From: Flavobacterium foetidum
Lineage (GTDB): Bacteria; Bacteroidota; Bacteroidia; Flavobacteriales; Flavobacteriaceae
DNA length: 64,000 nucleotides
Assembly (NCBI RefSeq): GCF_004634245.1
Contig: NZ_SJTF01000006.1
Coordinates: 1 to 64,000, forward strand
Direction of reading: 5' to 3'
Shown: positions 4,421 through 46,329 of the stretch, piece by piece
Layout: each line of letters begins with the position of its first letter
Position numbering within the stretch: position 1 is the first letter of the stretch
Made by a program: the position numbers and the translations under genes
Notes under the pieces: model-generated
The model's database searches: none
The model's input: only the letters and a program-made list of their open reading frames with translations
Told to the model about the DNA's origin: nothing

Positions 4421-6859
4421 ATGAAACGAATCATTTTCTATTTGATTTTGCTTGTAAGTTATGCTTCATTTGGCCAGTTAGCCCCAAGCGTTGCCAAGTA
4501 TAATCTTACCAAAAAAAGATTGCTTATTCAAGCTTGCTCCATGTATTTATTTAACGCCAACCAAGGCGCTATCGATGCAGACAGTTCGGTTGTTGTGGCC
4601 TGCAAAGCTTACAAACTTCCTGTTGCCCTCGCTTACGACGAAGGTTTTAATGACGGCTCTTATCTTATTGGAAAAGATTTGATAGAAAAAGGAGATATAA
4701 ACTCGGTCAAAAAACTGCTGACAAAAACCAAAGCAGAAGAAAGAATCAAGCTATTGCTTCAGTTAGGAAATTTTTATCTTTTTAAACCTGGAACAAAACC
4801 AGAAGACCTTCAAAACGCCAAAACCTATATTGACGATGCTGTGCGTACTAGCAATCAGTTTAAAAATAAAAAATGGCATCAACAAAGCTTACTGCTTTTG
4901 GGCAAATATAATTTTCAGGCCAATAATCAGCCTGAAGCGAAAAAAATATTTTTAAAGCTAATAGCCGAATGCCGAAAACAAAATGACAAAAAAGCTCTTG
5001 CTGAAGCTTTGGATGCTTATGGAACACTCCTATTCAATTTAGACCCCGAAAAAGAAAAGATTCTTCAGGAGGCAGTTTCGCTATTTGCTTCTTTGGGAAT
5101 GGAAGAAAAAAGAATAGAGAACTACATGAAAATTACGACCATTTATTTTTGGGGCGGAAAAATAAATGATGCCAAAAAAAGACTGTATCAAAATCTGGCC
5201 GACTTACGAAAAATCAATTTTAAGCATCAGCAGTTTGCTGAAACCACGATTACATTTATAGAAATTGCGCAGCACAACTTAGAGACAGCTTTATATTATG
5301 CGCTAAAAAGCGTAAAAAGAATGGAAGCCGAAAAAGACTTTACGTTTGGTGATATTTTTTATATGCGTTTGGGCGATGTTTACAATAATATTGGTCATTA
5401 TCAAGAGGCGCTTGAAATGTATCAAAGGAGTATTGAAATTGGACGAAGCACTATCGATTCTGGCACTTGGTATAAAAGCTTTTTTAGCGCCGTTGCCTCA
5501 TTATCTTTAAAAGGAAAAAATCAGCAAGCTATTGATTATATTAATTCTGTAACTACAAAATATCCGCCTAAAAATGATTTCGATAAAATGTCTGTAGCCT
5601 ACATCAGGGCCAATTGTTATGAAGCCTTGAAAAATTATACTTTGGCCGAAAAGTATTTTAAAGAAATGGACTTTTATGCGCAAAAAATAACGAGTCCAGA
5701 AACTTTTAGGGAAATTGTTCACGAATATACATTGATGGCCTTGTTTTATGCGAATCAAAAACAACCTGAAAAAGCACAGTTTTACACTGACAAGGTTACG
5801 GCGCTCTGTAAAAAATACGGAAAAAAATACAATTCCGAGGTTCTTCAGATTTTACTTTTTAGAATGGATTCCATAAAAGGAAATTATAAAGGTGCGTTGA
5901 GACATTTTCAAAACTATAAAATAATAAGTGATTCTACGATTAAAAACACCAAAAGAAAAGAAATTGAAGAACTTAAAATTGATTACGAAACCAAAAATAA
6001 AGAACAGAAAATCAAACTTTTAAATCAGGAATCTAATTTAAAGGAAGTGGCTTTAAGGAAATCTAAAATGCTGAACAGCGTTTCTATTTGGAGTTTGGTT
6101 CTGCTTTTAATTACCATTGGCTTGTTGTACAACCGATATCGTTTAAAACAGCGTAATCATGCCAAACTTGAAATCAAGGAAAAGGAAATCAATCAGAAAA
6201 ACATCAATCTTAAACATCTTTTAGACGAAAAAGAATGGCTGTTGAAAGAAATTCATCATCGTGTAAAAAACAATTTGCAGACCGTAATCAGTCTTTTGAA
6301 CTCGCAATCGGCTTATTTGGACAACGATATGGCTTTGTCCGCCATCAAAAACAGCCAGCACAGGATTCATTCGATGTCGCTGATTCATCAAAAATTGTAT
6401 AATTCTGAAAATATTTCGACCATTAATATGCCGAATTATATTAGAGAATTGGCTGAATATTTACGAGAATCTTTTTCGCTTGGGCAACGAATTCGTTTTG
6501 AAATAAAAGTCGACCCAATAGAATTGGATGTGGCGCAGGCCGTTCCGCTTGGATTGATTTTAAATGAAGCGATTACCAATTCTATCAAATATGCTTTTCC
6601 AGACGACCGAACGGGTATGATTTATATTACGCTTGAAGCGAAAGGCGAAAAACAATATGAATTGACGATTTCTGATAACGGAACTGGCTTTAATCTAAAT
6701 GGGAGCGATAAAAAAGCAAACTCCTTCGGAATGAGTTTAATAAGAGGTTTAAGCGATGATATTGAAGGAAAACTAACTATAGAAAACAATAACGGAACGG
6801 TTCTGAAAATTGAATTTGCTCAAGAATTTCCGCTGAATCCAAAAAGGAAATCGATTTAA
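4421..6859 (+). CDS. TPR-containing sensor histidine kinase (HisKA_2 type)
   Basis: An 812-residue membrane kinase. A signal-like segment (residues 1-18, ending SFGQ) leads into a long periplasmic region of helical tetratricopeptide-like repeats to about residue 530. A coiled-coil stretch and one membrane helix (about 548-568) follow. The cytoplasmic part has the HisKA_2 dimerisation motif KEIHHRVKNNLQ (His612/His613), then a HATPase_c domain with NEAITNSIKYAF and SDNGTGF. The HisKA_2 family works in phosphorelays and two-component pairs. The next gene, an NtrC-type regulator, starts 50 bp downstream and is the likely partner; the divergent regulator at 2242-4224 is another candidate. The signal sensed by the TPR region is unknown. 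Confidence 0.92.
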   Translation: MKRIIFYLILLVSYASFGQLAPSVAKYNLTKKRLLIQACSMYLFNANQGAIDADSSVVVACKAYKLPVALAYDEGFNDGSYLIGKDLIEKGDINSVKKLLTKTKAEERIKLLLQLGNFYLFKPGTKPEDLQNAKTYIDDAVRTSNQFKNKKWHQQSLLLLGKYNFQANNQPEAKKIFLKLIAECRKQNDKKALAEALDAYGTLLFNLDPEKEKILQEAVSLFASLGMEEKRIENYMKITTIYFWGGKINDAKKRLYQNLADLRKINFKHQQFAETTITFIEIAQHNLETALYYALKSVKRMEAEKDFTFGDIFYMRLGDVYNNIGHYQEALEMYQRSIEIGRSTIDSGTWYKSFFSAVASLSLKGKNQQAIDYINSVTTKYPPKNDFDKMSVAYIRANCYEALKNYTLAEKYFKEMDFYAQKITSPETFREIVHEYTLMALFYANQKQPEKAQFYTDKVTALCKKYGKKYNSEVLQILLFRMDSIKGNYKGALRHFQNYKIISDSTIKNTKRKEIEELKIDYETKNKEQKIKLLNQESNLKEVALRKSKMLNSVSIWSLVLLLITIGLLYNRYRLKQRNHAKLEIKEKEINQKNINLKHLLDEKEWLLKEIHHRVKNNLQTVISLLNSQSAYLDNDMALSAIKNSQHRIHSMSLIHQKLYNSENISTINMPNYIRELAEYLRESFSLGQRIRFEIKVDPIELDVAQAVPLGLILNEAITNSIKYAFPDDRTGMIYITLEAKGEKQYELTISDNGTGFNLNGSDKKANSFGMSLIRGLSDDIEGKLTIENNNGTVLKIEFAQEFPLNPKRKSI

Positions 6860-6909: not shown

Positions 6910-8265
6910 ATGACACACAAAATTTTAATTATAGACGACGAAGAAAAACTGAGAAGTCTGCTGGCGCGAATTATAAAATCGGAGGGATTTGAAGTTATCG
7001 AAGCCAAAGATTTAAAATCGGGATTCAAAAAACTGGAACAAAACGAAATTGATGTTGTTTTGTGTGATGTAAAACTGCCTGACGGAAATGGCGTTGATTT
7101 TCTTCAAAACATAAAAAACAGTTTTCCTTTAACAGAAGTGATTTTGCTGACGGCTTTCGGGAATATTCCCGATGGTGTTCAAGCAATGAAAAACGGTGCT
7201 TTCGATTATATTGTAAAAGGCGACGACAACGATAAAATTATTCCGCTTCTGTATAAGGCGGTCGAAAAAGTGCATTTGCAGAAAAAAGTCCAACAGTTAG
7301 AAAAACGCATTAACGATAAATATTCGTTCAATACTATTATAGGTAAATCAAAAGGAATCGAACAAGTAATTGACCTTGCCCAAAAAGTAGCGAAAACCGA
7401 TTCGACTGTTTTATTAACTGGCGAAACTGGAACCGGAAAAGAAGTTTTTGCACAGGCCATTCATGAAAACAGCAACCGTGCAGGAAAATCTTTTGTCGCT
7501 TTGAACTGCAGTACTTTCACTAAAGAAATTTTAGAAAGCGAACTTTTCGGACATAAACAAGGAGCTTTTACAGGAGCTGTAAAAGATAAAAAAGGTTTTA
7601 TTGAAGAAGCAAATGGCGGAACATTATTTCTGGATGAAATTGGTGAAATGCCAATTGACCTGCAAGCCAAATTATTACGTGTTTTGGAAACTTCCGAATA
7701 TATTCCCGTTGGTGACACGACTCCCAAAAAATCAAATTTCAGATTAATTGCCGCGACAAACCGAGATTTAAAAACAGAAAGCGACGAACATCGTTTCCGC
7801 TCTGATTTGTATTTCCGTTTGAATATCTTCGAAATCAAATTGCCTTCTTTACGAGAAAGAGTGAAAGATATTCCGCTTTTGGCGAATTATTACGTGAAAC
7901 AATTTTCAGAAAAAACAAATAAAAAAGCCTTGCAGATTGGTGATGATTTTCTTCAGAAATTAGAAAATTATTCTTGGCCAGGAAATATCCGTGAACTTAA
8001 AAATGTTATCGAAAGGTCGGTTATTTTAAATAGTGGGGATATTTTAACTGCGGATGTTCTTCCTTATGAATTACAGCATCAAACTGAAAATAATTCGAAA
8101 CCAATGTCGGCTTTCTCCATGCAGAGTGTTGAGAAACTGCATATTCAAAAGGTTTTAAATTATACGAAAGGTAATAAAGCGGAAACGGCTAGATTGTTGG
8201 AAATTGGGATTGCGACTTTGTATCGAAAAATTGAAGAATATGGAATAGAAAATTCCAAAAATTAA
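6910..8265 (+). CDS. Sigma-54-dependent response regulator (NtrC type)
   Basis: A 451-residue regulator. The receiver domain (about 1-115) has acceptor Asp53 in LCDVKLPDGNG. The AAA+ domain has Walker A TGETGTGKE, the sigma-54 loop GAFTGA (218-223) and Walker B LFLDEIGE. The C-terminus is a Fis-like helix-turn-helix (KAETARLLEIGIATLYRKIE). The ATG at 6910 is preferred over an in-frame TTG at 6868, because the receiver fold begins directly after it (HKILIIDDE). It follows the TPR kinase gene by 50 bp and so is probably co-transcribed with it. It also lies just upstream of kdp, and flavobacterial kdp loci lack a KdpE-type regulator here, so it may control kdp. A terminator at 8548-8575 separates it from the next gene. 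Confidence 0.92.
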   Translation: MTHKILIIDDEEKLRSLLARIIKSEGFEVIEAKDLKSGFKKLEQNEIDVVLCDVKLPDGNGVDFLQNIKNSFPLTEVILLTAFGNIPDGVQAMKNGAFDYIVKGDDNDKIIPLLYKAVEKVHLQKKVQQLEKRINDKYSFNTIIGKSKGIEQVIDLAQKVAKTDSTVLLTGETGTGKEVFAQAIHENSNRAGKSFVALNCSTFTKEILESELFGHKQGAFTGAVKDKKGFIEEANGGTLFLDEIGEMPIDLQAKLLRVLETSEYIPVGDTTPKKSNFRLIAATNRDLKTESDEHRFRSDLYFRLNIFEIKLPSLRERVKDIPLLANYYVKQFSEKTNKKALQIGDDFLQKLENYSWPGNIRELKNVIERSVILNSGDILTADVLPYELQHQTENNSKPMSAFSMQSVEKLHIQKVLNYTKGNKAETARLLEIGIATLYRKIEEYGIENSKN

Positions 8266-8360
8266 ATTCCAAATTCCAATGGCAATATCAATGACAAATT
8301 TCAAATTTCAAATTCAATTATAAAATTTCACAGAAGCGTTACATTTATTCATTGACATAA

Positions 8361-8524
8361 AAAGCTTCGGAGAAGCGATATATCTATAGAATAATTTAAT
8401 CCTATTGATAAAAAGCTCCAGAGGAGCGACACCTACACAATCTAAAAAAATATGTCACCCCGCTGGGGTTCTGATAAATGTGCATGCACTATTTTCTATA
8501 AATATATCGCTTCTCTGAAGCTTT
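8361..8524. repeat. 164-bp inverted-repeat element (MITE/REP-like)
   Basis: Arms of 30 bp (8361-8390 and 8495-8524) are reverse complements with two mismatches. They start AAAGCTTCGGAGAAGCGATA on the left. The 104-bp interior contains a related motif, AAAGCTCCAGAGGAGCGACA, near 8412-8431 and a CCCCGCTGGGG palindrome near 8458-8468. No coding potential is visible. It fills most of the 403-bp spacer between the regulator and the DUF7674-like gene. Confidence 0.75.
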
Positions 8525-8547
8525 GAAATAACATATCAAAACGAGAA

Positions 8548-8575
8548 AAGCTTATCATTTTGATAGGCTTTTTTT
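8548..8575 (+). terminator. Rho-independent terminator after the NtrC-type regulator
   Basis: AAGCTTATCA pairs with TGATAGGCTT (one G-T pair) around TTT and runs into an uninterrupted T tract. An in-frame ATG at 8576 sits immediately after the T tract, which argues that it is not the true start of the next gene. Confidence 0.8.
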
Positions 8576-8668
8576 ATGCCTAATTTTTGGCACAAAAACA
8601 TATTTCTTTTATTTACAACACTTTACATTCAACTCGACTTTTTCGGAACATCTTTTGGCATAAAGAGG

Positions 8669-8974
8669 ATGAACATTAAAAATTCATTCCAAATGAAAAA
8701 TCAAGTTACCTCAATCTATAAACAAGCAGAACGTTTTGCTGAGATTACTAAAAAATCAATTATCTGTGGCAATATCGTTCGGGCAAAAAAATGTTTAGCT
8801 CTTGCTGAACGGTTATTTATTACTGGAAGCATCGAAACTAAAAATGCTATTTCAAATGTATACGTTTTCTCAGTTTCGTCTTTCATGGAAATGCGTCACT
8901 GCAATATTTCACATCTTTTTCCACAGACACTTAAAGCAGAATATATCAAACAGGTTAATGCTTCGGGTGTTTAA
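8669..8974 (+). CDS. Small DUF7674-like protein at the head of the kdp locus
   Basis: A 101-residue soluble alpha-helical protein with no membrane segment. Central features are AERFAEITKKSI, RAKKCLALAERLF and a conserved-looking MRHCNI. From memory it resembles the DUF7674 family often found before kdpF in Flavobacteriia; no function is known to me. The start is uncertain. An ATG at 8576 abuts the T tract of the preceding terminator and adds a hydrophobic tail, so I prefer 8669; 8693 is equally possible. It is followed by a 27-codon membrane peptide and kdpF, so it is probably in the same transcript and may serve K+ homeostasis by context only. Confidence 0.6.
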   Translation: MNIKNSFQMKNQVTSIYKQAERFAEITKKSIICGNIVRAKKCLALAERLFITGSIETKNAISNVYVFSVSSFMEMRHCNISHLFPQTLKAEYIKQVNASGV

Positions 8975-9016
8975 TCTAAAATCTATCCCGAGGCTTCGGG
9001 ACTAAAATCTAAAATT

Positions 9017-9100
9017 ATGATTACCATTCTTCTTCTCGCTTTGGCAGTTTTACTGTTTGCGATTTGTTATTTGTCAGTTGAATTTTTTGAAAAAATCTAA
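9017..9100 (+). CDS. 27-residue hydrophobic membrane peptide upstream of kdpF
   Basis: The reading frame runs ATG to TAA with a hydrophobic helix over residues 2-20 (ITILLLALAVLLFAICYLSV) and a polar tail with Glu22, Glu25 and Lys26. It ends three bases before the kdpF ATG, which is typical of a translated operon member. It resembles a KdpF-like single helix but has a different tail. I do not recognise a named family. Very small frames can occur by chance, but the hydrophobic composition and tight spacing support it. Confidence 0.55.
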   Translation: MITILLLALAVLLFAICYLSVEFFEKI

Positions 9101-9103
9101 ATC

Positions 9104-9181
9104 ATGACTGCACTATTTATTATTTCAATCGCCGTTTTCGTGTATTTGGTTTACGTATTAATCAAACCTGAAAAATTCTAA
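9104..9181 (+). CDS. kdpF: KdpF, small subunit of the K+-transporting ATPase
   Basis: A 25-residue single-helix peptide (hydrophobic residues 2-20) ending KPEKF. This matches the KdpF pattern of a short membrane helix, a Tyr-Leu-Val-Tyr-like stretch (YLVYVLIKPEKF) and an acidic/aromatic C-terminus. KdpF stabilises the KdpFABC complex in the inner membrane. Its position just upstream of kdpA, in the same direction, is the standard one. Confidence 0.85.
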   Translation: MTALFIISIAVFVYLVYVLIKPEKF

Positions 9182-9281
9182 ATGAGAGGTTAAGGGTTAT
9201 AAGTTAGAGGTTAAACGTTTCTTCTTTAACCATATCAATTTTCAATCTCATTCAAATCTTAAAAAAAATAATCTCAAAATT

Positions 9282-11003
9282 ATGAATACAGAACTAATAG
9301 GCGTCGTAGGTATTTTTATCCTCATTATTATTTTAGCCATTCCGATAGGAAAATATATTGCTAAAGTATTTTTAGGAAATAAAACGCTTCTTGACCCGAT
9401 TTTCAATCCAATTGAAAAACTTATTTTTAAAATCAGCGGAATCAATCCAGCTGAAGAAATGAACTGGAAACAACATCTAAAAGCGCTTTTGAGCATCAAT
9501 ATGGTTTGGTTCTTTCTCTGCTTTTTTGTTTTACTGTTTCAGGGTTCTTTACCGCTAAATCCAGATAACAACCCATCCATGACTCCCGATTTGGCTTTTA
9601 ATACTGCCATTTCATTTTTAGTCAATTGCGATTTACAGCATTATTCAGGCGAAAGCGGTGTTTCTTATTTGTCACAGCTCGTTTTAATGTTCCTGCAATT
9701 CGTTTCGGCTGGTGTTGGAATCGCTGCAGCTTTAATGGTTTTTACCGCTATGCGCGAAAGAACCACAGACAAATTGGGGAATTTCTATAACTATTTCGTG
9801 AAAAGCTGTACACGTATTTTATTACCACTTTCAGTAATCGTAGCTATTGCCTTAGTTTTCAGTGGAACTCCTATGACTTTTGAAGGAAAAGATGCCATCA
9901 CAACTTTACAAGGCGATAATGTTGAAGTTTCTCGCGGGCCTGCTGCTGCCTTTATTGCGATTAAACATATTGGTACAAACGGAGGCGGATTCTTTGGAGC
10001 GAACTCAGCGCATCCGTTAGAAAATCCAACTTATTTTACCAATGCAGTTGAGCTTTGGGCGCAAATGATTGTTCCGTTTGCGATGATTTTTGCACTTGGT
10101 TTTTTCTTAAACAAAAGAAAGTTATCTTATATCATTTTTGGTGTGATGACTGTTGGATTCTTACTGTTGGTAATTCCGACAATCTCAAGCGAAATCAACG
10201 GAAATCCTGCTATTGCAAAAATGGGAATCGCTCAGACGACTGGAGCGATGGAAGGAAAAGAAGTTCGGTTTGGTCCAGCTATTTCAGGTTTCTGGAGTAT
10301 TGCTACAACGGTAATTTCTACAGGGTCTGTAAATAGTATGCACGATAGTTCAATGCCAGTTTCTGGAGCGATGCAGTTATTAGCCATGATGGTCAATGCC
10401 TTTTATGGCGGATGCGGTGTGGGTTACCTCAACTTTTACATCTTTATTATTCTGGCCGTGTTTATTTCTGGTTTAATGGTGGGCCGAACTCCTGAATTTT
10501 TAGGAAAGAAAATCGAAGCTCGGGAAGTTAAGATTGCTGCTTTTATTGCCATCATTCACCCATTATTGATTTTAGCAGGAACTGCTTTAGCTTCTTATTT
10601 TGCTGCTCATGATACCGAAATGGGTTATTGGTTTAGCGGAAATGCCACAGGATGGTTGAATAATCCAGGAAATCACGGATTCTCTGAAATGTTATATGAA
10701 TATACTTCGAGTGCTGCCAACAATGGTTCTGGTTTTGAAGGTTTGGGAGATAATAATCCGTTTTGGAATATCACAACTGGAATTGTTTTATTGTTGAGTC
10801 GTTTCATTCCTATTATCGGGCCTCTTGCAATTGCAGGTTTGTTAGCTAATAAAAAATACATTCCTGAAAGTGCCGGAACTTTAAAAACCGATACTTCAAT
10901 TTTTGGAATTATGATTTTTGCTGTCATTGCGATTATTGCTGCCTTATCGTTCTTTCCTGCATTGGCACTTGGGCCTTTGGCTGAATACTTTACACTAAAA
11001 TAA
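9282..11003 (+). CDS. kdpA: KdpA, K+-binding channel subunit
   Basis: A 573-residue polytopic membrane protein with about ten helices. KdpA carries the four-fold selectivity filter and captures external K+ for KdpFABC, the high-affinity ATP-driven pump. Diagnostic stretches are NCDLQHYSGE near residues 114-123, GTNGGGFFGANSAHP near 232-246, and a third filter-like GGCGVGYLNF near 376-385. Length is normal (E. coli 557). The 100-bp gap after kdpF holds only degenerate repeat sequence (GGTTAAGGGTTATAAG-like, about 9186-9212). The 303-bp gap to kdpB holds an inverted repeat. Confidence 0.98.
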   Translation: MNTELIGVVGIFILIIILAIPIGKYIAKVFLGNKTLLDPIFNPIEKLIFKISGINPAEEMNWKQHLKALLSINMVWFFLCFFVLLFQGSLPLNPDNNPSMTPDLAFNTAISFLVNCDLQHYSGESGVSYLSQLVLMFLQFVSAGVGIAAALMVFTAMRERTTDKLGNFYNYFVKSCTRILLPLSVIVAIALVFSGTPMTFEGKDAITTLQGDNVEVSRGPAAAFIAIKHIGTNGGGFFGANSAHPLENPTYFTNAVELWAQMIVPFAMIFALGFFLNKRKLSYIIFGVMTVGFLLLVIPTISSEINGNPAIAKMGIAQTTGAMEGKEVRFGPAISGFWSIATTVISTGSVNSMHDSSMPVSGAMQLLAMMVNAFYGGCGVGYLNFYIFIILAVFISGLMVGRTPEFLGKKIEAREVKIAAFIAIIHPLLILAGTALASYFAAHDTEMGYWFSGNATGWLNNPGNHGFSEMLYEYTSSAANNGSGFEGLGDNNPFWNITTGIVLLLSRFIPIIGPLAIAGLLANKKYIPESAGTLKTDTSIFGIMIFAVIAIIAALSFFPALALGPLAEYFTLK

Positions 11004-38304: not shown

Positions 38305-41076
38305 TTACATCACTAACTGTTTGTTTGAAGGCGCAAACTTAGTTAAGTTTATACCGTCTACAGCAGCTGTATATTCATCTATAGTTGGTGTTCTTCCTAA
38401 AATCGTAGATAGCACAACGACTGGCGTAGAAGAAAGCAGTGATTCTCCTTTTTTGCCTTCCTTATCTTCTACAACTCTTCCTTGGAACAAACGAGTCGAA
38501 GTTGCCATTACGGTATCTCCTTTAGCCGCTTTTTCTTGGTTACCCATACAAAGGTTACAACCTGGGCGCTCTAAATACAACATGTTTTCATATTCAGTAC
38601 GTGCCGCAGATTTTGGAGCATTATCATCAAATTCGAATCCAGAATATCTTTGTAAAACTTCCCAGTCTCCTTCAGCCTTAAGCTCATCTACAATGTTGTA
38701 AGTTGGAGGTGCAACTACAAGAGGAGCGTTAAATTCAACTTTTCCATTTTGCGCCTCTACATTTTTCAACATTTGAGCTAGGATTTTCATATCTCCTTTA
38801 TGAACCATACATGATCCGATAAATCCAAGATCTACTTTTTTCACGCCACCATAGTAAGACAAAGGTCTAATAGTATCGTGAGTATAACGCTTAGAAACAT
38901 CAGCATTGTTTACGTCTGGATCGGCAATCATTGGCTCAGCAATTTCATCAAGATCAACTACAACTTCTGCATAATATTTAGCATTTGCATCTGGAGTCAA
39001 CGCTGGTTTTTCGCCAGATTTAATTTCTGTAATTCTCTTATCTGCTTTATTGATTAACCCTTGAAGAACTTGTCTTTCGTTATCCATTCCTTTGTCGATC
39101 ATGATCTGGATTCTGCCCTTTGCAATTTCCAATGATTCGATTAAGGTATCATCTTCTGAGATACAGATTGAAGCTTTTGCTTTCATCTCTGCAGTCCAGT
39201 CTGTAAATGTAAACGCTTGGTCAGCAGTAAGTGTTCCGATATGAACCTCGATAATTCTACCTTGGAATACGTTCTCGCCGTTGAATTTTTTTAGCATTTG
39301 CGCTTGTGTAGCATGAACCACATCACGGAAATCCATATATCCTTTCATATCTCCTTTGAAAGTTACTTTTACTGATTCCGGAATTGGCATAGAAGCCTCT
39401 CCAGTAGCCAGTGCAAGCGCAACAGTTCCTGAGTCAGCACCAAAAGCAACACCTTTTGACATTCTTGTATGAGAATCACCACCAATAATGATTGCCCACT
39501 CATCGATAGTGATATCATTAAGCACTTTGTGGATAACGTCTGTCATTGAATGGTAAACCCCTTTAGGATCGCGAGCCGTAATCAAACCGAAGTTGTTCAT
39601 GAATTTCATCAATTTAGGAATGTTTGCTTGCGCTTTTTTATCCCAAACAGAAGCAGTGTGACAACCCGATTGGTACGCACCATCAACAATTGGAGAAATA
39701 ACCGTAGCCGCCATAGATTCTAATTCCTGAGCAGTCATAAGCCCTGTAGTATCCTGAGAACCTACGATGTTTACTTCTACACGAACGTCAGATCCAGCGT
39801 GCAATACTTTTCCTGGAGCAATTCCGACAGCATTTCTATTGAAGATTTTCTCAACGGCCGTCAAACCTTGTCCTTCATTAGAAATTTCTTTAGATGGAGC
39901 AAAGACAGCAGGAGCTTCAATATCTAAAACTTTAGCCGCAAAAGTCTGAAGTTTTTTACCGAATACAATTGCATAAGAACCTCCAGCTCTAATGAACTCT
40001 TTTTTCTGAGGAGTAAATGATCTAGAAATATCGATTAATTCCTGATCACCGTTATATAATTTTTTAGTCTGTGTATTAATAGTAAGAACAGTTCCTGTAG
40101 CAACAGAATACGCTTGCTCAAGAATTGGTTCATTATTTTCGTTCAATACCGGTTTTCCGTCTGCGTCTAATTTTTTAACCCAGTTTTTAAGGTCAATTCC
40201 GATGCCTCCAGTTACGTCAACTGTAGTAAGGAAAATTGGAGAAATACCATTTGTTCCTCCAACAATTGGAGCAATATTTACGAATGGAACGTATGGACTA
40301 GCTTGTTTTCCTGTCCAAAGCGCCACGTTGTTTACACCTGACATCCTAGAAGAACCCACTCCCATTGTTCCTTTTTCGGCAATTAACATCACACTTGCAT
40401 CAGGGTGTTTCGCTTGAAGCGCTTGAATTTCTGCTTGCGCCTGAGGTGTAATCATACATTTACCGTGAAGCTCACGATCTGAACGTGAGTGAGCTTGGTT
40501 TCCTGGAGAAAGTAAATCTGTAGAGATATCTCCTTCACCAGCGATATAAGTAACCACCTTAATTTCCTCAGCAATTTCAGGTAATTTAGTGAAGAATTCA
40601 GCTTTTGCATAGCTTTCAATAATCTCTTTGGCAACTGTATTACCATTTTTGAAAGCTTCTTTTAAGCGATCTGTATCAGCATCATATAGGAAAACTTGTG
40701 TTTTAAGCACTTCTCCTGCTTGTTTTGCTATAGCGGCATCATTTCCTAAAGCCAAATCTAACAATACTTCGATTGAAGGCCCACCTTTCATATGAGACAA
40801 TAACTCAAAAGCAAAAGCAGGTGTAATTTCTTTTACAACAGATTCTCCAAGAATGATTTCTTTTAAAAACTTAGCTTTTTCACCAGCAGCACTTGTTGTT
40901 CCTGGCAACGTATTGTAAATAAAAAACTTAAGAGAATCTTCGCGATACTCATTATCTAAATCTTTAATTTGTGCGATGATTTCGCTTGCTAATAATGCGT
41001 CATCGATTGGCTTCGGGTGAAGGCCTTGGCTTTTTCTTTCTTCAATTTCTTGAATGTAGTCCTTATAAGTGTTCAT
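38305..41076 (-). CDS. acnB: Bifunctional aconitate hydratase 2 / 2-methylisocitrate dehydratase
   Basis: A 923-residue AcnB-type aconitase. It starts with a HEAT-like helical domain (about 1-160) absent from AcnA. The swivel domain comes next (GSSRMSGVNN), then the catalytic domains, with cluster cysteines in GFIGSCMVHKGD near 774-785 and PGCNLCMGNQ near 844-853. Besides the TCA step, AcnB also works on 2-methylisocitrate, and apo-AcnB can bind mRNA in some bacteria; the latter is not shown here. A -7 box lies 49 bp upstream of its ATG and a strong terminator follows. Confidence 0.95.
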   Translation of the reverse strand: MNTYKDYIQEIEERKSQGLHPKPIDDALLASEIIAQIKDLDNEYREDSLKFFIYNTLPGTTSAAGEKAKFLKEIILGESVVKEITPAFAFELLSHMKGGPSIEVLLDLALGNDAAIAKQAGEVLKTQVFLYDADTDRLKEAFKNGNTVAKEIIESYAKAEFFTKLPEIAEEIKVVTYIAGEGDISTDLLSPGNQAHSRSDRELHGKCMITPQAQAEIQALQAKHPDASVMLIAEKGTMGVGSSRMSGVNNVALWTGKQASPYVPFVNIAPIVGGTNGISPIFLTTVDVTGGIGIDLKNWVKKLDADGKPVLNENNEPILEQAYSVATGTVLTINTQTKKLYNGDQELIDISRSFTPQKKEFIRAGGSYAIVFGKKLQTFAAKVLDIEAPAVFAPSKEISNEGQGLTAVEKIFNRNAVGIAPGKVLHAGSDVRVEVNIVGSQDTTGLMTAQELESMAATVISPIVDGAYQSGCHTASVWDKKAQANIPKLMKFMNNFGLITARDPKGVYHSMTDVIHKVLNDITIDEWAIIIGGDSHTRMSKGVAFGADSGTVALALATGEASMPIPESVKVTFKGDMKGYMDFRDVVHATQAQMLKKFNGENVFQGRIIEVHIGTLTADQAFTFTDWTAEMKAKASICISEDDTLIESLEIAKGRIQIMIDKGMDNERQVLQGLINKADKRITEIKSGEKPALTPDANAKYYAEVVVDLDEIAEPMIADPDVNNADVSKRYTHDTIRPLSYYGGVKKVDLGFIGSCMVHKGDMKILAQMLKNVEAQNGKVEFNAPLVVAPPTYNIVDELKAEGDWEVLQRYSGFEFDDNAPKSAARTEYENMLYLERPGCNLCMGNQEKAAKGDTVMATSTRLFQGRVVEDKEGKKGESLLSSTPVVVLSTILGRTPTIDEYTAAVDGINLTKFAPSNKQLVM

Positions 41077-41132: not shown

Positions 41133-41459
41133 TGAATTAATGCCGAAAACTAAAAGAAATATAATAGAAGGCGCCTTTTCAAAAATTATTATTGCTAAAA
41201 AACGATTTTCGATGCGAGTTTTTGTCAAAAAAATAATTTTATATTAAAAAAATGAATTATTGATATTTTAGATTCTTTTCTTTAACAAAGTCGAAATTTA
41301 TTGTTATGACAGAAGTGAGATTTTACTTCTATTTTAGACAAGAACCATTCTAAATAATAATTTACAACGTTATAGTTGTCGATTTTTCTACCGCAGTTGC
41401 CGTATTTCAATCTTTTGAATTTTTCAAAACTTTACTCTCAAAAATAAAATCTGAAATGA

Positions 41460-41488
41460 TTGCTGTTTCAATAATTCTTATAACTTTG
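41460..41488 (+). promoter_or_regulatory. Promoter of the XrtN operon (TTG-N18-TAACTTTG)
   Basis: TTG at 41460-41462 and TAACTTTG at 41481-41488 match both halves of the Bacteroidetes promoter with near-ideal spacing. The ATG follows at 41524. The remaining spacer to the acnB promoter shows nothing recognisable. Confidence 0.65.
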
Positions 41489-41523
41489 CAATTCAAAGTA
41501 CTTTTATTTAAAAACAACTTTAT

Positions 41524-44013
41524 ATGAAAACAAAACCTATTTATGCTTTTTGGAATAGCAAGATTGGAGTAAGCCTGGCTATATCTCTTTTTACTATCGT
41601 GATATTGATTTCGTCCTTAATAGGAAGCAATTTCGATAATGAAAATTTTGAAAAACTTTCTTTTCTAAATATTCTGATCCAAATTCCTTATGGCCTTATA
41701 ACCGCTTATTTAGTTTTACGAAATAGAAAAAAGTACCAGTATTTACTGGCTTTCTTATTTCTTAACTGGTTTATCGGCTGTTTTTCTTTGAACATGGGAA
41801 TGAATGTTTTTGAAAATCTCCCAATCTGGGTTTATTGCACCACTTTTCTATTCTGTTTGTCTAATTTTGCTATCTATAACGAATTCGACAACAAACACTT
41901 AAACACGATTTCCTATTTTGTAAACGGATGTTCTATTTTGCTGATTCTCTATTATGCTGTTTTTCTTATTCAGATTAGCATTATTTCATTTTTCGGAATC
42001 ATTGTTTTAGGACTCGGCTTTTATGGTTTAGTTCCAGCGGTTGTCCTTACTATTCACTCTATAATACTCTCCAAAAAGCTTTTCTATTACAAAAGCAATC
42101 TCAAGGCTTTCTGTTCTGGAATAGCCACGGTACTGATCGGAATTGCTGTTTTTATTGTATTCTTAAATATCGAAAGCAAAAAAATCAGCCAAAACAGTGT
42201 TACCAAAACATTTGAAAACGACGAAGATCTTCCAGCTTACATCCGAATTTCACAGCATTTAAGTCCTAATTTTTTCAACGAAATTCTACTTAAAAAAGAC
42301 ATCGTTTATGTTGCAACCGAAGATTTTTTCAACTTGGATGGTTTTGGCGCATTTGGAAGAAATGTGCAGTATAACGAACGAAAAACACACAATCCGATAT
42401 ACAATGTGGCGTATAAATTTACTGATGACATCAATTTAAGTAATGACGACAAAATAAATATTTTAAAATCAAACTTTGACAAGAGGCTTGAAGCCGAGGA
42501 ATATTTATGGAGCGGTAAAGATTTAATTACCAGAAACATTAAGGAAGATGTGAAAATTTATCCTAACGATAGATTGGCTTACACTGAGTTGACTATTGAT
42601 GTTGCTTCTGAAGATAAAAGCTGGAGACAAAAAGAAGCAATCTATTCTTTTCAGCTTCCCGAAGGTGCTGTTGCAACTTCGCTTTCACTGTGGGTAAACG
42701 GCATAGAACGAAAAGGAGTTTTAACAACCAAGGAAAAAGCTAAAAAAGCCTACAATCAAGTAGTGGGCGTTGAAATGCGCGACCCTTCGCTGATGCAGTG
42801 GAAAGAAGGAAACAGAGTTACTGTACGGATTTTTCCGATCACGAGCGATTTGCCGCGTACTTTTAAATGCGGATTTACGACTCCTCTAAAAACAAAAAAC
42901 AGCAAACTGGTTTACGAAAGCCTTAATATAAAAGGCCCAAACATAAACAATGCCGAAACTATTTCGAGAATTCAAGTCAGTGGCGGACAAAACTTTACAG
43001 CTTCAAAAGATTTTGATTTTGCGAATAATTATTATACAAATAAAGCTACGGGACTAGAAAAATGGCAAGCGTCATTAGAAGCAAATACAAAAAATACAAA
43101 TAGCTTCTTTACCTGGAAGAACAAAAGCTACCAAACAAAACCGTTAATCAAAGAAAAAATCGTTTTTGTGCCAAACGAAATTGTCTTAGACCTTAGCTGC
43201 AACTGGAAACTGTCGGAGATTGAAACATTCTTAAACATCAAAAACAAAAAATACATGGTTGTTTTAAATGGCGAAAAACAAGAAATCAATGACACAAATT
43301 ACAGGACAGTATTTCAAAACTTTAAAGAGCTGAATTACTCGCTTTTGCCATTATTCGATTTTAAGGAAAATACATTGATTATTACTAAATGTGGCGCTTT
43401 CTCTCCAAATTTTGAAGAGCTGGAATCATCAAATTATTTGAAAAAGATAAAAACAGAAGTTAAGTCAAAAAATATTAAGGTTATTAACATCGCAGAAAAC
43501 ACAAATCCGTTTTGGCAGACTGCAAAAGAACAGCGATATGTAAGTTATTTTCAAACCGATATCAACCAGTCTGCAAACCTTGTTGAAACTAATCGTTTTA
43601 TACAATTTAAAACTTCCGTCAACAGAATCAACTTAGAAACCGCTGGAATTTCTATCGAGGAAAGCCCTGAAATAAAAAACACAAACCAAAAAGGTTCTAA
43701 CCATTTGTACAGAATGTTTTGTTTTGGAAAGGTCTTGAATGATCAAGTTGAAATTCAAAACGATACATTGGCACAGAATCAATATGTCGAACTGGCAAAA
43801 GATGCCAATATAGTGACTCCTATTTCATCCTTAATCGTTCTGGAAACTGATCGCGACTATGAAGAAAATGGAATTGAGAAAAACATCGATACACTCGGAA
43901 ATGCTTCTATAACAAATGATGGAGCTGTTCCTGAACCACACGAATGGGCAATGATTATTGCGGCTGGATTATTGGTTTTATTTTATTACAGAAAACAAAA
44001 GCTTGCCAGTTAA
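41524..44013 (+). CDS. XrtN-system VIT domain protein with PEP-type sorting tail
   Basis: An 829-residue membrane protein. Six or more helices fill residues 15-220. An extracytoplasmic VIT (inter-alpha-trypsin-like) domain follows near 345-470 (TELTIDVA, SFQLPEGAVATSLSLWVNG, CGFTTPL). A less clear region runs to about 790. The C-terminus is a PEP-CTERM-like signal: VPEPHEW (PEP at 803-805), one helix, then Arg-Lys. That tail is the recognition site for exosortase cleavage. It overlaps the next gene (xrtN) by 1 nt (TAATG), so both are co-translated. It is the dedicated partner protein of the XrtN family; its final task is unknown. Confidence 0.88.
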   Translation: MKTKPIYAFWNSKIGVSLAISLFTIVILISSLIGSNFDNENFEKLSFLNILIQIPYGLITAYLVLRNRKKYQYLLAFLFLNWFIGCFSLNMGMNVFENLPIWVYCTTFLFCLSNFAIYNEFDNKHLNTISYFVNGCSILLILYYAVFLIQISIISFFGIIVLGLGFYGLVPAVVLTIHSIILSKKLFYYKSNLKAFCSGIATVLIGIAVFIVFLNIESKKISQNSVTKTFENDEDLPAYIRISQHLSPNFFNEILLKKDIVYVATEDFFNLDGFGAFGRNVQYNERKTHNPIYNVAYKFTDDINLSNDDKINILKSNFDKRLEAEEYLWSGKDLITRNIKEDVKIYPNDRLAYTELTIDVASEDKSWRQKEAIYSFQLPEGAVATSLSLWVNGIERKGVLTTKEKAKKAYNQVVGVEMRDPSLMQWKEGNRVTVRIFPITSDLPRTFKCGFTTPLKTKNSKLVYESLNIKGPNINNAETISRIQVSGGQNFTASKDFDFANNYYTNKATGLEKWQASLEANTKNTNSFFTWKNKSYQTKPLIKEKIVFVPNEIVLDLSCNWKLSEIETFLNIKNKKYMVVLNGEKQEINDTNYRTVFQNFKELNYSLLPLFDFKENTLIITKCGAFSPNFEELESSNYLKKIKTEVKSKNIKVINIAENTNPFWQTAKEQRYVSYFQTDINQSANLVETNRFIQFKTSVNRINLETAGISIEESPEIKNTNQKGSNHLYRMFCFGKVLNDQVEIQNDTLAQNQYVELAKDANIVTPISSLIVLETDRDYEENGIEKNIDTLGNASITNDGAVPEPHEWAMIIAAGLLVLFYYRKQKLAS

Positions 44014-45251
44014 TGAAAAATCTAATCTTGAAAAACAAACCAATTCTCGCTGTAATTCTTCTAATACTACCGCTTTTAATCCTTAACAGCGAAATATTGG
44101 CTATTGCTGTAAATAATGACTTTATTGGAATTATTGTTTCACTATTCTTATTTTTTGTTGGAGGCAGAAAAACAAATTTTAGAATCAATTACATTTTGTT
44201 TGCTTTAATTCTGGTTTTAGAATTCGTAAGTTATCGTCTCAATACCAAGTCGGTTCATTTTCTTGCTTTGGTTTTGTTATTGTGTTTGATTTTTCATTAT
44301 TTCACTCAAAGATTTTCATTTATTGCTTTTATCTGCATCATTTTATTTTCAACAATTTTTAATACTTTTTTTATTCATCTGACCTCAGAAATCAAGCAGA
44401 ATCTTTGTTACGCAGTTTATCTGACATTGAAAAACTTTATAAACATTGATAAAATCGAAGGGGTCAGTTTTTACATCAATCACTCCAAAATTACGATTGA
44501 CACGGCTTGTATGGGATTATCGATGTTTAAAACTGGCTTGTTATCTTGTGCGGTTTTGATGACTTTGGAAGAGCAAAAACAGAAACATTATTACAGTATT
44601 TTGCAGATTATCTTACTGTGCGTACTGACAGTTGTTCTCAACATCTTGTCTAATTATTTCAGAATCATCACGCTTGTTTTATTGAATTGCACACAAGAAA
44701 ACCTACTGCACCATTCAGTTGGTTTAGCGTGTTTCGTAATTTATCAGATAGTGCCTTTGCTGTTAATTGTAAGACATTTTAAACCAAAAATAACAAACAG
44801 CAATCGAAACGAAACTCATCCTAAGATATATTTCGCAGGATTATCATTTCTTCTTGTTTTGATAGTCAGTTTAAAAATTAGCCACCAAAAAACAACCGAA
44901 CCCTTAATTAAAATTCCGCAAGAATACAAAAACGAAAAAGGGAGCTGGGTTAACAACGAAGTTTATAAAATTAATCCTAAAGATTATCTTATTTACATTA
45001 AAACTCCCGGTCATAACCCGCTGATATGCTGGACAGGCAACGGCTACAAAATACTTGAAACAAAGAAAGTGAGCATAAACAACGATGATATCTGGCTTAA
45101 CAAAATGGAAAAAAACAACCAGATTTACTACTCCTATTGGTGGTACAAATGCGGTTCAAAAAAATATACTTCATTTGCAGAAGTTATGTTTATGAAGTTG
45201 CTTTACAACGAGCCAGTAATATTGATTAATCAAACTTCGAAATCACAATAA
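44013..45251 (+). CDS. xrtN: Exosortase N
   Basis: A 412-residue polytopic membrane cysteine transpeptidase-like enzyme. The exosortase triad is visible: Cys166 in DTACMGLSM, Arg217 in SNYFRII and His233/His234 in LLHHSVGL. A C-terminal extracytoplasmic domain (about 305-412) with Trp- and Tyr-rich segments (YYSYWWYKCG) follows. Exosortases cut PEP-type tails and transfer proteins to a surface carrier. The start is the ATG overlapping the upstream stop; an earlier in-frame start would lie inside the VIT gene. No second client with a PEP tail is visible in this window. Confidence 0.9.
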   Translation: MKNLILKNKPILAVILLILPLLILNSEILAIAVNNDFIGIIVSLFLFFVGGRKTNFRINYILFALILVLEFVSYRLNTKSVHFLALVLLLCLIFHYFTQRFSFIAFICIILFSTIFNTFFIHLTSEIKQNLCYAVYLTLKNFINIDKIEGVSFYINHSKITIDTACMGLSMFKTGLLSCAVLMTLEEQKQKHYYSILQIILLCVLTVVLNILSNYFRIITLVLLNCTQENLLHHSVGLACFVIYQIVPLLLIVRHFKPKITNSNRNETHPKIYFAGLSFLLVLIVSLKISHQKTTEPLIKIPQEYKNEKGSWVNNEVYKINPKDYLIYIKTPGHNPLICWTGNGYKILETKKVSINNDDIWLNKMEKNNQIYYSYWWYKCGSKKYTSFAEVMFMKLLYNEPVILINQTSKSQ

Positions 45252-45342
45252 TATGTTGCACCGCTGGAGTTTTTAGTTTGTCTGCCTAACTTTACAAATA
45301 GTATTCATTCTGTTTTACCATCAAGATTTACTTGTAATCAAA

Positions 45343-45369
45343 AAGGGCTGTCATTTTGAGACAGCCCTT
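45343..45369 (-). terminator. Terminator of moxR
   Basis: AAGGGCTGTC pairs with GACAGCCCTT. On the minus strand TTTTTG follows. It may also stop the convergent xrtN transcript. Confidence 0.88.
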
Positions 45370-45375
45370 CTAATT

Positions 45376-46329
45376 TTATAGTAATTTCTGAATTATCTTT
45401 TCTTCAGTTATCCCTTCTGCGTCAGCTTTATAGTTCTTAATAATTCTATGACGAAGAATTCCAGTCGCAACTGCTTTTACATCCTCAATATCTGGAGAAA
45501 ATTTTCCGTTGAAAGCGGCGTGCGCTTTTGCGGCCAAAATCAAATTCTGCGAAGCTCTAGGCCCTGCTCCCCAATCCAGATAGTTTTTCACAAAATCATT
45601 TGTCAATTTATTATCCGGACGGGTTTTGCTAACTAGAGTTACCGCATATTCTATCACATTATCTGCTACAGGAATTCTGCGGATTAAATGCTGAAAATCT
45701 ATAATTTCTTGTGCCGTAAATAATGGCGTGATATTAGTCTTAACATCCGAAGTCGTTCGTTTTACCACTTGAACTTCTTCTTCAAAAGTTGGATATTCTA
45801 ATTTTATGGCAAACATAAATCGGTCTAACTGTGCTTCTGGAAGCGGATAAGTCCCCTCCTGCTCAATTGGGTTTTGTGTTGCCAGTACAAAATATGGCAA
45901 ATCTAATTTATGATGCTGACCGGCGATAGTAACCGAACGTTCCTGCATCGCTTCCAATAAAGCGGCTTGAGTTTTAGGAGGCGTTCTGTTGATCTCATCG
46001 GCTAAAATAATGTTTGAGAAAATTGGGCCTTTAATGAATTTAAAATTTCGGTTTTCATCCAAAATTTCACTTCCTAAAATATCAGAAGGCATTAAATCTG
46101 GAGTAAACTGAATTCTTTTAAAATCAAGACCTAAAGCTTGAGACAGAGTATTAATCATTAAGGTTTTTGCTAAACCCGGAACCCCAATTAACAATGCATG
46201 TCCTCCGGAAAATATACAAAGCAAGATTTGATCTACAACGGCATCTTGGCCTACAATGATTTTTGCTATTTCGTTTTTTAATTCGCTTCGTTTCTGAACT
46301 AAATTGTGAATTGCTGTTACGTCAGACAT
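45376..46329 (-). CDS. MoxR-type AAA+ ATPase
   Basis: A 317-residue AAA+ ATPase with Walker A GVPGLAKT (about 39-46), Walker B ILADEIN, sensor 1 ATQNPIEQEGTYPLPEAQLDRF and a C-terminal lid. MoxR proteins remodel or activate partner proteins, often with von Willebrand A or DUF58 proteins encoded next door. Here the next gene downstream is convergent and no vWA/DUF58 gene is present. The upstream gene is SurA-like, separated by a terminator. The client is therefore unknown. Confidence 0.94.
   Translation of the reverse strand: MSDVTAIHNLVQKRSELKNEIAKIIVGQDAVVDQILLCIFSGGHALLIGVPGLAKTLMINTLSQALGLDFKRIQFTPDLMPSDILGSEILDENRNFKFIKGPIFSNIILADEINRTPPKTQAALLEAMQERSVTIAGQHHKLDLPYFVLATQNPIEQEGTYPLPEAQLDRFMFAIKLEYPTFEEEVQVVKRTTSDVKTNITPLFTAQEIIDFQHLIRRIPVADNVIEYAVTLVSKTRPDNKLTNDFVKNYLDWGAGPRASQNLILAAKAHAAFNGKFSPDIEDVKAVATGILRHRIIKNYKADAEGITEEKIIQKLL

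Follow-up and report, generated by a model that had tools for sequence, protein, structure and literature searches.

The stretch of DNA analysed here (the window) comprises 64,000 nucleotides of Flavobacterium foetidum (positions 1 to 64,000 of contig NZ_SJTF01000006.1, assembly GCF_004634245.1) and carries on its forward strand two adjacent genes, one for an exosortase and one for the membrane protein that is its candidate substrate. The upstream gene (41524..44013) encodes an 829-residue VIT-domain protein, referred to below as the client, and the downstream gene (44013..45251) encodes the 412-residue exosortase XrtN. The two overlap by a single base, the final A of the client TAA stop codon being the A of the xrtN ATG at 44013. 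The client matches the NCBIfam model TIGR04477 (XrtN-system VIT protein) over nearly its full length with a score of 838.6 bits (cut-off 250), and XrtN matches TIGR04476 (exosortase N) with 363.1 bits (cut-off 200), residues 14–404 aligning with positions 7–406 of the 406-position model. An earlier reading of this DNA made from the letters alone (the sequence-only reading) had reported the same open reading frames, strand, coordinates and overlap. Since NCBIfam gives both names, and both proteins lie far above the curated cut-offs, the names that it had assigned were right and the system was already catalogued. On these matches the pair is a member of the TIGR04476/TIGR04477 kind from which nothing essential differs. 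No paper naming the pair was found in the open-licence literature, and the system is apparently catalogued but, as far as found, unstudied.

Architecture of the client and of XrtN

The client consists of seven predicted N-terminal helices, assigned from family-averaged hydropathy, a large soluble region that includes the VIT domain and a PEP-CTERM-type tail. The VIT domain (residues 345–441; 42556..42846, forward strand) matches PF08487 with 52.2 bits (E 8.3e-14), and all 20 family members that were scanned, out of a collection of 37, have the same domain. The loops predicted to be cytoplasmic carry family means of 2.3, 3.1, 1.6 and 2.6 Lys/Arg residues, against 1.4, 0 and 0 in the short outer loops, which would place the VIT region in the periplasm and the end of the tail in the cytoplasm. 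This tail (43927..44010, forward strand) is composed of VPEPHEW (residues 802–808), a helix and RKQKLAS, and the protein ends in NDGAVPEPHEWAMIIAAGLLVLFYYRKQKLAS; the sequence-only reading had singled out this ending of a membrane VIT protein, and it is seen in the client sequence. As in PEP-CTERM substrates, a PEP motif, a helix and C-terminal basic residues are found; in place of the signal peptide and otherwise soluble chain of such substrates the client has its seven predicted N-terminal helices. It is a PEP-tailed polytopic protein, like the MSEP-CTERM proteins considered below. The Pfam PEP-CTERM model matches one of 20 client members (E 0.11).

Sequence searches against solved structures produced no match below E 0.14, and inter-alpha-trypsin inhibitor heavy chain H4 aligned with client residues 348–415 at E 0.15. 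A VWA-like fold following the VIT domain was considered, as residues 552–656 alternate strand and helix by eye in a poor predicted model; Pfam detects no VWA domain in 20 members, and the fold is not claimed.

XrtN scores 25.0 bits against the general model TIGR04178 (cut-off 23), and PF09721 matches 21 of 21 aligned XrtN members, with a best E of 2.6e-13. Cys166, Arg217 and His233 are invariant in all 36 aligned XrtN sequences. The sequence-only reading had placed His233/234 in the triad together with Cys166 and Arg217; position 234 is histidine in 28 sequences, tyrosine in seven and glutamate in one, so that His234 drops out and the remainder stands. A Cys, an Arg and a His or Arg within membrane helices are the catalytic residues of exosortases and archaeosortases, and Cys166, Arg217 and His233 fit this pattern as a putative catalytic triad.

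By profile comparison, XrtN carries an EpsI-like (DUF3485) C-terminal domain, the core of which spans residues 330–389 (45000..45179, forward strand; HNPLICWTGNGY ... SYWWY). The C-terminal part scored 39.9 against 18 DUF3485 sequences (E 1.4e-5, probability 80), whereas the highest control score among 100 column shuffles was 21.6; a reversed profile gave 14.2 and the XrtN membrane core 18.7. Positions 329–398 of the XrtN model match four stand-alone DUF3485 open reading frames at E ~2e-6, and the signature HxPxxCWxGxGY, after which comes SxWWY, is itself present in 35 of the 36 XrtN sequences. The Pfam DUF3485 model responds weakly, matching four of 21 XrtN members (best E 0.069) and giving no match for XrtN of the window. 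Fusion of an exosortase to an EpsI-like region was already described in 2006 (PMC1569441), and the assignment is therefore a placement rather than a discovery. At one locus (L125, genome G299; XrtN at 4500–5600, minus strand) an in-frame loss of 45 residues, corresponding to 319–363 in window numbering, has taken out the EpsI-like core; the triad of the enzyme and the PEP tail of the adjacent client are both retained.

Conservation of the PEP tail and distribution of the pair

A PEP-tailed client lies directly upstream of xrtN at all 36 loci that have the enzyme, the window included, and the motif [AS]VPEP[HY]EW is kept in every one of these clients. GAVPEPHEW is kept exactly in a distant pair (L149) that belongs to a different family within the phylum and whose client and XrtN are 34% and 31% identical to those of the window. 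Differences at fourfold sites amount to 0.55 within the motif and 0.58 across the client gene, and four codons are in use at each of the Gly, Val and two Pro positions, the last Glu codon being GAA in 36 of 36. Since fourfold sites in the motif are as free as elsewhere, selection acts on the protein.

A single client lacking XrtN was found (L126, genome G358; 7657–10158, minus strand), and it has GSPLNYQW in the place of the motif; no XrtN was present in the 14 kb around it, the DNA having been read on both flanks. Its hydrophobic stretch is kept and its basic end is kept and longer, and it retains 203 of the 227 residues that do not vary among the other 33 clients of the alignment. The changes are concentrated in residues 798–808, where seven of nine invariant residues differ compared with 17 of 218 elsewhere (Fisher 1.9e-6, for a region picked post hoc in one species). 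This locus is a natural loss experiment in which the motif goes with the enzyme.

The promoter upstream of the client is likewise conserved. A TTG at 41460–41462 and TAACTTTG at 41481–41488, separated by 18 nucleotides, form an element of the Bacteroidota −33/−7 type (41460..41488, forward strand) that spans 64 to 36 bases 5′ of the client start. Among 37 regions upstream of clients, 35 have a TAnnTTTG box 25 to 45 bases ahead of the start and 22 have the full TTG-N16-22-TAnnTTTG arrangement, against about one expected from first-order Markov resampling. The box is absent near the start only at L149 and at L126. The −33/−7 promoter of the sequence-only reading is in this way backed by conservation.

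The search for further tails covered the whole genome (5.1 Mb in 28 contigs). As a DNA pattern, PEPxxW gave 12 matches, compared with three for the reversed pattern used as a control; the match in the client is the only one that closes a long frame with a helix, basic residues and a stop codon after it, and the other 11 were inspected and rejected as PEP tails. A profile built from 14 tail sequences, the search that also covers PEP tails lacking Trp at +3, returned the client at E 1.8e-20; the 11 further matches, all with E of at least 0.95, lack PEP and were rejected on inspection. No second tail of the client type was found in these two genome-wide searches, in which general PEP-CTERM models were not run and targets of the second exosortase, XrtF, were not sought. 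The proposal of a single linked client, against which many unlinked PEP tails in the genome would have spoken, agrees with this outcome.

XrtF itself (TIGR04128, 214 bits; 183 residues) is encoded beside its partner (TIGR04127, 138 bits) in the same genome (G000:C23; L001, 1041–2013), and no PEP client was present in the 3.3 kb read around it. Calling the XrtN system self-contained is justified as far as the pair goes, but XrtF and its usual partner give the genome a second exosortase. A third exosortase match was below the cut-off, contained internal stops and was ignored. Two other VIT proteins of the genome (L128 and L129) were considered as similar clients and rejected, as they have different architectures without PEP tails.

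Across 299 genomes drawn from the genus, XrtN was above its cut-off in 33 and the client in 34, with 33 shared. In a draw of 199 genomes from 198 genera of the family, either protein exceeded its cut-off only in the genome of the window; with weaker matches (E up to 0.001) and the same genome counted, XrtN was matched in three and the client in 22, and the weak matches that were inspected are XrtK/MSEP-CTERM loci or other VIT proteins. Among 345 genomes of the phylum the same five exceeded both cut-offs, one of them (G595) from another family, and 22 further genomes, all of one family (f17), matched the XrtN model below the cut-off. The pair is sporadically present and its locus is therefore probably dispensable.

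In the window the pair has aconitase on one side and moxR on the other. Of the 36 other loci, 29 share one or more flanking genes with the window (aconitases, moxR or surA) and seven share none within the DNA compared. A survey of moxR covered a draw of 101 genomes, 89 of which gave a match; in the best 30 loci the pair was present in eight, moxR and acnB were adjacent without it in 19, moxR lay by acnA in two and neither was in the flank in one. The spacer on the acnB side in the window matches five empty sites at about 76–83% across 270–285 bases. These empty sites and the matching spacer indicate that the pair has been gained or lost as a unit, which in the window would extend over about 41387–45375. 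At 25 loci with both flanks complete (L125 excluded), mean between-species divergence is 34% for both client and XrtN, 8% for AcnB and 5% for MoxR; the divergence of the pair (41524–45251) is thus some four to seven times that of the housekeeping genes beside it (38305–41076 and 45376–46329). Over the same loci the client and XrtN distances correlate at 0.79, or 0.72 as a partial correlation given the two flanking genes, a value reached in 0 of 2000 permutations.

Proposed reaction and alternatives

The earlier observation is confirmed and its interpretation is essentially right. Taken together, the conservation of motif and triad and their one-to-one linkage make it probable that this is a dedicated enzyme–substrate pair, in which XrtN cuts the PEP motif of this client and perhaps joins it to an acceptor. 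The two steps are not equally secure: from the sequences, cutting of the client at PEP by XrtN is likely, and for the joining of the cut client to an acceptor by the same enzyme the chances appear about even. Archaeosortase A supplies the analogy on which XrtN is expected to cut near PEP and then hand the client to an acceptor; for that enzyme, a thioester on the cysteine followed by transfer to the amine of a lipid is presented in PMC7157517 as the authors' speculative model.

The reaction could proceed as follows. The client would enter the inner membrane through its seven helices with the N-terminus inside, leaving the VIT region in the periplasm, and its last helix would return the basic tail to the cytoplasm. 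Cys166 of XrtN would then attack at or near VPEPHEW on the periplasmic face, the last helix and basic tail would be lost and the client would be held as a thioester. The EpsI-like domain might help to present or choose the acceptor, and the new C-terminus of the client would be joined to this lipid or glycan. With seven predicted helices still holding it in the inner membrane, the client should not be set free by the cut but anchored anew: its C-terminal helix would be swapped for another attachment, giving an inner-membrane VIT protein tied at both ends.

Several observations weigh against this proposal. No biochemistry for the XrtN family was found in the literature, and nothing in the present analysis identifies an acceptor. 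XrtN of the window scores 24.7 against PF09721, slightly below the cut-off of 25.7, and the short C-terminal helix of the client falls under the threshold of a simple hydropathy scan. The AlphaFold2 models, computed from two-sequence alignments, are poor for both proteins, with a mean predicted local distance difference test score (pLDDT) of 49.9 for XrtN and 33.6 for the client. The L125 deletion may mean that XrtN can do without the EpsI-like domain at that locus, or it may mark a gene in decay. The L126 observation comes from one genome only, 90% complete in 320 contigs, and the invariant residues that its client keeps suggest that the client may work uncut. The correlation between client and XrtN distances may be explicable by the shared history of linked genes alone.

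The strongest of the alternatives, although unlikely, is that XrtN only trims the client: water would resolve the thioester, and the freed C-terminal end of the VIT region would fold, move or bind a partner with nothing attached to it. The seven helices should hold such a product in the membrane, giving retention without attachment; no acceptor-making gene was seen beside the pair in the window or at L093 and L149–L151, the loci at which neighbours were annotated; and the client of L126 persists with neither enzyme nor motif. Against trimming, retention of the EpsI-like core in all but one of the 36 XrtN sequences suggests more than hydrolysis, and archaeosortase A, the best-studied relative, is linked to C-terminal lipid attachment in PMC7157517. 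It is improbable to a much greater degree that XrtN does not cut at all and acts as a partner of the client in the membrane, binding the PEP helix so that the client stays folded or inactive. The want of enzymology for the family would agree with such a role, and a one-to-one overlapping pair is also expected of an obligate complex, but invariance of Cys166, Arg217 and His233 despite the divergence of the pair counts against it. That the tail is conserved as a nucleotide-level signal before the overlap, coupling translation of xrtN, can practically be dismissed: each of the 32 loci examined for it has a candidate xrtN start codon at the client stop (offset 0, 1, 4 or −7), the motif vanishes together with the enzyme in L126 and the last Glu codon is uniform, but the other codons of the motif vary as they do elsewhere in the gene.

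The pair offers a minimal test bed for exosortase chemistry. What exosortases attach to the new C-termini of their clients is described as unidentified in the account given by PMC7468200, and with one enzyme, one client and no other such tail found the question is reduced here to one protein. In-frame deletions have been made in Flavobacterium, in F. johnsoniae (PMC10936215). The pair suggests, too, that release need not be the purpose of a cut by an exosortase.

Comparison with known systems

The classical PEP-CTERM/EpsH (XrtA-type) systems share the PEP–helix–basic tail and the exosortase core with the XrtN system, and some EpsH proteins have a C-terminal region homologous to EpsI (PMC1569441). 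They differ in having many clients, 27 to 65 in table rows of PMC1569441, which have signal peptides as described in PMC12188702, and in usually lying near exopolysaccharide genes, whereas XrtN has one polytopic client and lies between aconitase and moxR. XrtF and its TIGR04127 partner resemble the XrtN pair in that an exosortase-family protein stands beside a dedicated small membrane partner, although the much shorter XrtF belongs to a different subfamily. In F. johnsoniae the XrtF and partner genes both matter for surface colonisation and biofilm (PMC10936215), and the targets of XrtF are given as not yet known in PMC12188702.

VIT-type regions recur among other proteins that, judged by their model names, are sorted at the C-terminus, as in TIGR03788 and TIGR02921. 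The client matches TIGR03788 (marine proteobacterial sortase target) weakly, at E 0.0028, with similarity confined to the VIT region; TIGR02921 has no direct match to the client, but the VIT protein L128 matches both TIGR03788 (1.9e-14) and TIGR02921 (9.1e-6). All four models named for C-terminal sorting clients (TIGR04477, TIGR04286, TIGR02921 and TIGR03788) show VIT-region similarity, directly or by way of L128. TIGR03788 belongs to a sortase, an enzyme unrelated to exosortases, and in animals the inter-alpha-trypsin heavy chains, themselves VIT proteins, are trimmed at the C-terminus and esterified to a glycan. Because the four client families share this similarity, VIT domains might be a recurrent scaffold for C-terminal conjugation, with XrtN and its EpsI-like domain coupling the C-terminus of the seven-helix client to an envelope lipid or glycan, so that the client would form a covalent tether that crosses the membrane or runs along it; this extension seems doubtful, and the four models were perhaps curated with sorting systems in mind, in which case the overlap may be curator selection.

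A close parallel is the XrtK/MSEP-CTERM system (TIGR04287/TIGR04286), in which a dedicated exosortase likewise stands beside one large polytopic VIT protein ending in a C-terminal motif, a helix and a basic end. The two kinds of client are homologous across 386 columns that include the helices and the VIT domain (E 3e-17); the client of the window scores 64 bits against TIGR04286 (cut-off 150), as a relative and not a member. A short exosortase-sized gene lies directly upstream of the MSEP protein in the four loci read, XrtK being confirmed in the three that were scanned; MSEP-CTERM and VIT were confirmed in the one protein scanned, to which the three other MSEP proteins are 40–61% identical. 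At L127 and L131 the XrtK/MSEP-CTERM genes are part of a longer run of genes for small membrane proteins, which on visual comparison looks similar between two genera. The system differs from that of XrtN in its motif, MSEP rather than PEP, in the position of the exosortase gene upstream of the client, in the longer N-terminal membrane part of the client and in the size of XrtK, which at 173–176 residues in the three scanned leaves no room for an EpsI-like domain. The sequence-only reading had called cutting of the tail from a polytopic client unusual; because the MSEP-CTERM proteins share this layout, it is better described as the feature of a small class to which both systems belong.

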